From Dehalococcoidia bacterium (GTDB lineage Bacteria; Chloroflexota; Dehalococcoidia; SpSt-223): DNA of 40,087 nt. A program made the position numbers and the translations under genes. Within the stretch, counting starts at the first letter, position 1. Each line of letters starts with the position of its first letter. Below, one piece after another: positions 20,262 to 21,602 of the stretch. The stretch lies in contig JANWZD010000019.1 in the NCBI GenBank assembly GCA_025054935.1, positions 1 through 40,087 of the forward strand, read 5' to 3'. The notes below the pieces were generated by a model. That model ran no database searches, was not told where the DNA came from, and worked only from the letters and a program-made list of their open reading frames with translations.

Positions 20262-20984
20262 CTACGGGCCGGCAGGGGGCGCCGGCTCCTCGTCGAGGAC
20301 GCGGACAAACACGTGGGAAGCGAGTTCGGGACCGACCGCGTGCTCGCTGTCGCCAAGCTGCACGTGGATAGGCCCTCCGAAGGGAGCGCGCTCGCGCACA
20401 ACGATCGGCACGCTGGGAAACATCCCGAGAGACGCAAGGTAGCGCAGGAGCGCAGGGTCACGGTCGCTCACGCGCTGGATGACGGCTGGCTGACCGGGTT
20501 CGAGCCGCGAAAGCGGGATCAATGCCGGTTCGACCAATTCCAAATCTTTTGTCGGGATGGGGTCGCCATGCGGGTCGACGGTCGGCCGGCCAAGGAGAAC
20601 GTCGATCCGCTCTTCGAACTCTTCCGAGATGACATGCTCCAGCCGGTCTGCCTCGGCGTGCACCGCGTCCCAGGAGTAGCCGAGCACTTCAGCAAGGTAG
20701 AGCTCAAGCAGCCGGTGGTGGCGAATGATCTCGAGGGCAATCTTACGGCCAGCAGGGGTCAGCTCCACGCCGTGATAGCGCGTATGGACGACAAGACCAA
20801 GCTGCGCCAAGCGCTTGCTCATACTCGTCACCGAGGCATCGCTGATTTCGAGGAGACCGGCAAGCGCTGACGTTGTCGCCTCCTGACCGCTCGCCTGCAA
20901 GTGGTAGACCGCCTTGAGATAGTCCTCGGCAGCTTGGCCGAGTGGCGCTCCGTGGTCGCCGCGATGGACGCGCGAGCGTGGCAC
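20262..20984 (-). CDS. DtxR/MntR-family metal-dependent transcriptional regulator
   Basis: This regulator (about 240 residues) has an N-terminal winged helix (QAAEDYLKAVYHLQASG; TSALAGLLEISDASVTSMSKRLAQLGLV), the metal-binding and dimerisation domain (IIRHHRLLELYLAEVLGYSWDAVHAEADRLEHVISEEFEERI, with the conserved His and Glu ligands) and a C-terminal SH3-like FeoA domain from about residue 150. Family members sense iron or manganese and repress uptake or oxidative stress genes. The frame reaches upstream past 21017. I chose GTG at 20984 because GGGGAGGGG precedes it, and because the ATG at 21017 falls inside a TATGAT -10 candidate (21014-21019). It is divergent from the TGA-containing peroxiredoxin-like gene. 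Confidence 0.9.
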   Translation of the reverse strand: MPRSRVHRGDHGAPLGQAAEDYLKAVYHLQASGQEATTSALAGLLEISDASVTSMSKRLAQLGLVVHTRYHGVELTPAGRKIALEIIRHHRLLELYLAEVLGYSWDAVHAEADRLEHVISEEFEERIDVLLGRPTVDPHGDPIPTKDLELVEPALIPLSRLEPGQPAVIQRVSDRDPALLRYLASLGMFPSVPIVVRERAPFGGPIHVQLGDSEHAVGPELASHVFVRVLDEEPAPPAGP

Positions 20985-21012
20985 GACCCCTCCCCCGTCG
21001 GTTCTGTCACCA

Positions 21013-21057
21013 ATCATACGAAAGCGCAGTTCAGTTCGCCCGCTGGCATGGTATGAT
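21013..21057. promoter_or_regulatory. Divergent promoter region with symmetric TATGAT elements
   Basis: ATCATAC at 21013-21019 and GTATGAT at 21051-21057 are perfect inverted copies, 31 bases apart. Each contains a TATGAT -10-like hexamer pointing away from the centre, one toward the DtxR-type regulator (minus) and one toward the peroxiredoxin-like gene (plus). Only weak -35 matches are present. The layout suggests coupled control of both genes, possibly by the regulator itself. Confidence 0.5.
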
Positions 21058-21086
21058 GTCTTCAGCGTATCACGGCTGGAGACTAC

Positions 21087-21602
21087 ATGATCCCGCAGAT
21101 TCAAGTGGGCAACACCTTTCCTGATTTCGAAGTGCCCGACCATACTGGCGCCCTCCGCCGGCTGAGCGAGTTCGCCGGCCGCGACCCGCTCGCCCTGATC
21201 ATCTACCGCGGCTGGTGGTGACCCAAGTGCCAGCAGGAGCTGCGGGGGCTCGTTGAGCTCCAGAAGGAAATCGCGGTCGCCTATACCTCCCTCGTCGTGA
21301 TGAGCACCGACCCTCCCGAAGTCAGCGCTGCCTTTCGCGCCGGCCTCGGCGCGCAGTTCCCCTTCCTGTGCGACTACGAGCGGAAGGTGCAGCGCCTGCT
21401 CGACCTCCAAGAGACGACCGACCCGCGCCACGATCCGATCATCCCCTACAGCTTCACGCTCTACCCCGACCTGACAATCCACAAGATCTACAACGGCTAT
21501 TGGTTCTGGGGCCGGCCGACCCTCGAAGAATTGCGCCAAGACTTTCGCGAGATCAGCCGCGCCATCCGTCCGGATTGGGACCTCCAGAACATTCGCCGCT
21601 AG
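21087..21602 (+). CDS. Peroxiredoxin-like protein with in-frame TGA at the peroxidatic position; probable selenoprotein
   Basis: Reading from ATG 21087, which has GGAG five bases upstream, the frame runs 171 residues to a TAG at 21600 and is interrupted only by TGA at 21219-21221 (codon 45). The flanking residues are YRGWW-[TGA]-PKC. In AhpC/TSA-family proteins of this kind the pattern is YRGxWCPxC, so the TGA replaces exactly the peroxidatic cysteine, giving U-x-x-C with Cys48. Sequence after the TGA (QQELRGLVELQKEI; YTSLVVMSTDPPEV; FPFLCDYE; WFWGRPTLEELRQDF) stays redoxin-like with no frameshift, which argues against decay. A hairpin suitable for a bacterial SECIS follows. It would reduce peroxides or thiols in the cytoplasm. 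Selenocysteine is inferred; a nonsense mutation or base error remains possible. Confidence 0.8.
21219..21255 (+). promoter_or_regulatory. Candidate bacterial SECIS hairpin after the in-frame TGA
   Basis: The upper stem is GAGC at 21237-21240 with GCTC at 21248-21251, around the loop TGCGGGG. It extends downward by C21234-G55, A35-T54 and a G36-T53 wobble, with G52 bulged. The loop begins 19 bases after the TGA, and its second base is G. Both agree with the bacterial SECIS pattern (short distance from UGA, conserved G among the first loop bases), but the stem is short and GC-rich sequence forms such hairpins easily. Confidence 0.5.

Follow-up and report, generated by a model that had tools for sequence, protein, structure and literature searches.

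A predicted UxxC selenoprotein gene of the Prx-like class in a Dehalococcoidia bacterium

Selenoproteins with a peroxiredoxin-like fold have been described with selenocysteine (Sec, U) in different registers. The Prx-like thiol:disulfide oxidoreductases ("Prx-like 1", GOS survey; PMC1088965, PMC2398784, PMC13188914) share with the gene described here the domain PF00578, a bacterial SECIS element, many Cys homologues, and a thioredoxin-like UxxC motif that replaces TxxU. In the Sargasso Sea survey, too, Prx-like proteins were set apart by UXXC instead of TXXU (PMC1088965). As far as the published Prx-like entries were accessible, they give UxxC and UxxU, plus UxxS for cd02970 (PMC1088965, PMC2398784, PMC13188914). 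Repeated changes from Cys to Sec have been reported for Prx-like proteins (PMC1794560). The literature was searched for the Prx-like UxxC class in Chloroflexota or Dehalococcoidia, and nothing specific was found; as far as this search shows, the selenoprotein gene is new to this lineage.

The reading frame and its relatives

The window, i.e. the whole stretch of 40,087 nucleotides that was analysed, contains on its forward strand a frame from ATG at 21087 to TAG at 21600–21602 (gene 21087–21602), which comprises 171 residues counting U. Its sole interruption is a TGA at 21219–21221 (codon 45), and neither further stops nor frameshifts occur. The sequence GGAG (21078–21081, forward strand), 5 nt upstream of the ATG, resembles a Shine-Dalgarno motif and could well serve for ribosome binding. 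The TGA opens the motif U-P-K-C, in which codon 48 (TGC, 21228–21230) encodes a Cys. An earlier note on this DNA had described a ribosome binding site and a 171-codon frame broken only by this TGA, and the positions of ATG, TGA and TAG agree with it. It had also expected standard gene callers to truncate the gene, and the mechanical list of open reading frames indeed gives only 21297–21602. At a GC content of 66%, chance alone yields 44 open codons with a probability of about 0.34; for a frame of 171 codons that contains a single stop, the probability is about 0.06. Openness of the frame is therefore a weak argument, and the case rests on homology across the TGA.

When the TGA is read through, the Pfam domain AhpC-TSA (PF00578) spans residues 7–131 (67.6 bits against a cut-off of 26, E 1e-18), and relatives align along residues 1–171 with either Cys or TGA at codon 45. 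Two genomes of the same genus possess the TGA at this codon (L102, 91% identity; L103, 84%), where the earlier note had considered that stops scattered elsewhere in close relatives would speak against Sec; the protein sequence of L102 is that of KatS3mg060 (L009). The TGA was likewise found in more distant Chloroflexota of other families (L068, 66%; L069, 59%; L070, 56%; L096, 55%; L107, 52%; L108, 55%; L109, 49%). Of the 84 rows that make up this clade, 74 have Cys (TGC or TGT) at codon 45, a comparison that the earlier note had proposed as a check, and Trp was never seen in homologues. These 74 rows were drawn from Chloroflexota, Bradyrhizobium, Actinomycetota, Myxococcota and others. Conservation of TGA in orthologues, together with Cys in other homologues, is the pattern by which a bacterial selenoprotein is recognized. 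On the tree of the entire set, the TGA state must have changed at least four to five times, which agrees with the recurrent switches from Cys to Sec mentioned above (PMC1794560).

Fold and register of U45 and C48

An AlphaFold model, calculated from 24 sequences of the window and its relatives and carrying Cys at residue 45, reached a mean pLDDT of 90. In comparison to solved folds, its best matches were the peroxiredoxins Bcp4, BcpB and AhpE (Z about 20, rmsd 2.0–2.4 over about 150 residues). Residues 46–62 form the active-site helix of the model, and U45 lies immediately ahead of its N-terminus. With AhpC-TSA above its cut-off and the UxxC motif U45-P-K-C48, the gene product is a member of the published Prx-like thiol:disulfide oxidoreductase class (PF00578, UxxC).

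When the protein was aligned to the solved peroxiredoxins 5epf and 2ywn, U45 matched the Thr of TxxC, and the peroxidatic Cys was matched by C48. In the alignment to ResA/DsbE, U45 corresponds to the first Cys of CxxC and C48 to the second. The claim of the earlier note that the TGA lies exactly at the peroxidatic Cys could thus not be upheld. Canonical peroxiredoxins possess Thr or Ser three residues before the peroxidatic Cys or Sec; here Gly42 precedes U45 by three residues, and a TxxC or TxxU motif is absent from the protein. If C48 were the peroxidatic residue, U45 would occupy the Thr site. The U-x-x-C redox motif proposed in the earlier note is present in this gene, but it is not a general feature of the family: almost every Cys homologue carries Asp or Glu at position 48 (C-P-K-D/E), and residue 45 alone is kept. 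Because of this conservation, residue 45 is taken as the catalytic nucleophile, and a resolving role of C48 would be confined to the members with UxxC. U45 thereby takes the place of the attacking Cys of thioredoxins, which is also the place of the Sec of glutathione peroxidases.

The sequences would also accommodate a mechanism in which Sec itself is accepted, but has the peroxidatic role that it would play in AhpC-type peroxiredoxins (1-Cys or 2-Cys); the earlier note had likewise proposed a peroxidatic position. The best fold matches are peroxiredoxins, including the 1-Cys AhpE and Bcp, and residue 45 is the only Cys or Sec of the motif kept in nearly all homologues, so that it could have assumed the peroxidatic role. 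However, this mechanism is rather unlikely in view of the alignments, in which U45 pairs with the Thr of TxxC and the peroxidatic Cys pairs with C48, of the missing TxxC motif, and of the TxxU peroxiredoxin of the same genome, which is a separate gene.

A tentative but plausible reading is that the subfamily is a distinct selenoprotein lineage of Chloroflexota, in which U or C45, at the Thr site of peroxiredoxins, took over catalysis and the canonical peroxidatic position became Asp or Glu in most members; UxxE and UxxD forms (L070, L107 and L109), whose motif lacks a resolving Cys, would then stand beside UxxC forms such as the present gene, with several switches between Cys and Sec. In L070, L107 and L109 the motif reads U-P-K-E or U-P-K-D, and the tree nests these Sec relatives among Cys homologues. 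More distant AhpC/TSA-like proteins of Chloroflexota (L105, L106 and L110–L118) have TGA in UPFC, UPYC, UTAC or UGTC motifs and are probable selenoproteins too; L117 and L118 carry long Pro/Thr-rich N-terminal extensions.

Decoding of the TGA

The genome of the window harbors a tRNA-Sec with UCA anticodon (68 bits) as well as SelB (329 bits), SelA (559 bits) and SelD (397 bits), all above curated cut-offs; selA, selB, selC and selD, for which the earlier note had suggested a search, are thus all present. The selD gene (G000:C15:53052–53978, L100, minus strand) likewise contains an in-frame TGA, at the place where SelD usually has Sec or Cys (HGAG-U-ACKLG). A second selenoprotein gene of the same genome (G000:C7:21314–21682, L120, forward strand) encodes an AhpC/TSA protein with the sequence FTSG-U-TNE; it is a canonical TxxU peroxiredoxin (T-S-G-U), in which the TGA lies at the peroxidatic position. 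Across genomes, SelB was detected in 16/16 genomes with TGA and in 31/37 with Cys, a difference that is not significant (P 0.16).

Downstream of the UGA, a candidate bacterial SECIS hairpin is located at 21245–21261 (forward strand; GGGGCUC-GUU-GAGCUCC), with 7 bp and a 3-nt loop, GUU, which starts with GU. The published bSECIS rules demand a loop of 3–9 nt, G within the first two loop positions, a distance of 16–37 nt from the UGA, and an MFE of -7.5 kcal/mol or lower (PMC13188914); this hairpin, whose loop lies 30 nt past the UGA and whose MFE is -9.4 kcal/mol, complies with them. About 12% of synonymous recodings of the gene comply as well, and the hairpin energy is not unusual against such recodings (z -0.66). 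A hairpin also forms at the corresponding place of L009, L103 and L070; two compensatory pair changes occur among the four sequences, a covariation that 32/500 shuffles reached. In the larger set, the rules were satisfied by 11 of 21 TGA genes versus 0.8 expected from synonymous recoding, and by 4 of 78 Cys genes versus 3.1 expected (P 2e-6 in a Fisher test that takes no account of kinship); in their strict version, the rules were failed by 10 of the 21 TGA genes. Many other TGA genes possess AGUU exactly 16 nt past the UGA by means of a TTG Leu codon, and TTG was used at 11/19 of those Leu sites versus 9% elsewhere in the same genes, again in counts that ignore kinship. Since hairpin energy versus synonymous recoding did not tell TGA and Cys genes apart, energy alone was dropped as evidence for a SECIS, and the rule test and covariation were used instead. 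The Cys homologue L073 (G161:C220), a sister of the Sec form L070, has a very stable hairpin past its Cys codon (z -3.2 versus synonymous recoding), which is possibly a relic SECIS.

Between the gene and L009, synonymous versus nonsynonymous codon changes numbered 14 versus 5 before the TGA and 39 versus 9 after it, and between the gene and L103 16 versus 9 and 44 versus 17. The predominance of synonymous changes on either side of the TGA speaks for translation of the frame over its full length. Together with the Sec machinery, the TGA/Cys conservation and the SECIS rules, this bias favours the reading of the earlier note, and judged from the sequences the TGA at 21219–21221 almost certainly encodes selenocysteine in a real selenoprotein gene.

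Genetic codes that read UGA as Trp exist in other organisms, and a code 4-like decoding as Trp or another residue, or general read-through, was considered in place of Sec; but UGA terminates 3/6 of the neighbouring genes checked, and is therefore not globally reassigned, Trp is encoded by TGG in these genes, the other TGAs seen sit at Sec sites (the Cys of SelD, TxxC of Prx), homologues have Cys at the site, and the genome encodes tRNA-Sec, SelA, SelB and SelD, so that this explanation was discarded as highly improbable. In a draft assembly, a lone in-frame stop might also be a mistake, or mark a pseudogene in which a mutated or misread TGC or TGT leaves only fragments to be made, as the shortened ORF of standard annotation might suggest; however, the identical TGA in independent assemblies, namely in two genomes of the same genus, whose proteins are 84–91% identical to this one, and in further Chloroflexota families, the dominance of synonymous changes on both sides, and the otherwise intact frame make this equally improbable, and it was rejected on the TGA conservation.

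Genomic context and comparison with known systems

Divergently from the selenoprotein gene, the minus strand (20262–21017) encodes a metal-dependent repressor of the DtxR/MntR type, which carries a FeoA domain and whose gene adjoins the selenoprotein gene in all three members of the genus. Metal-dependent repression of the gene by this protein is possible. Downstream follows a Na+/H+ exchanger with TrkA-N. A scan for promoters and terminators turned up nothing.

The product is probably a cytosolic thiol/selenol oxidoreductase with a peroxiredoxin fold and belongs to the UxxC class. SelB and Sec-tRNA(Sec) would bind the hairpin just 3' of the UGA at 21219, and Sec would be inserted at residue 45. 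It is likely that the selenolate of U45 would attack a peroxide or disulfide, that C48 would resolve the product to a selenenylsulfide, and that a thioredoxin-like partner would reduce the latter. The gene product is probably involved in the detoxification of peroxides or disulfides.

The Chloroflexota gene is a real, previously unlabelled selenoprotein gene of a class that is already known. With it, a Chloroflexota lineage gains a selenoprotein gene that is under purifying selection and that annotation would truncate. The compact family with its closely related UxxC, UxxE, UxxD, CxxD and CxxE forms offers a test of the advantage that Sec confers and of the contribution of a resolving Cys.

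Of the known systems, the SelL-related redox protein NF040769 is the best NCBIfam match, yet its score (46.1 bits) lies far below the cut-off of 120 bits for membership. In ResA/DsbE-type thioredoxins (CxxC), U45 and C48 fall on both Cys residues of WCPxC, but the protein described here has a short N-terminus without an evident signal or membrane anchor, and its fold is nearer to peroxiredoxins. The Sec-containing peroxiredoxin PrxU (TxxU) shares the fold and a Sec at the active-site loop; its Sec, however, sits three residues later than U45. In contrast to the Prx-like class, the Cys homologues of the present subfamily are mostly C-P-K-D/E and not CxxC, and several Sec relatives are UxxE or UxxD. 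The mix of UxxC, UxxE, UxxD and CxxD/E inside one subfamily is the unusual part, and the UxxE and UxxD forms, which lack a resolving Cys, are its less ordinary members.
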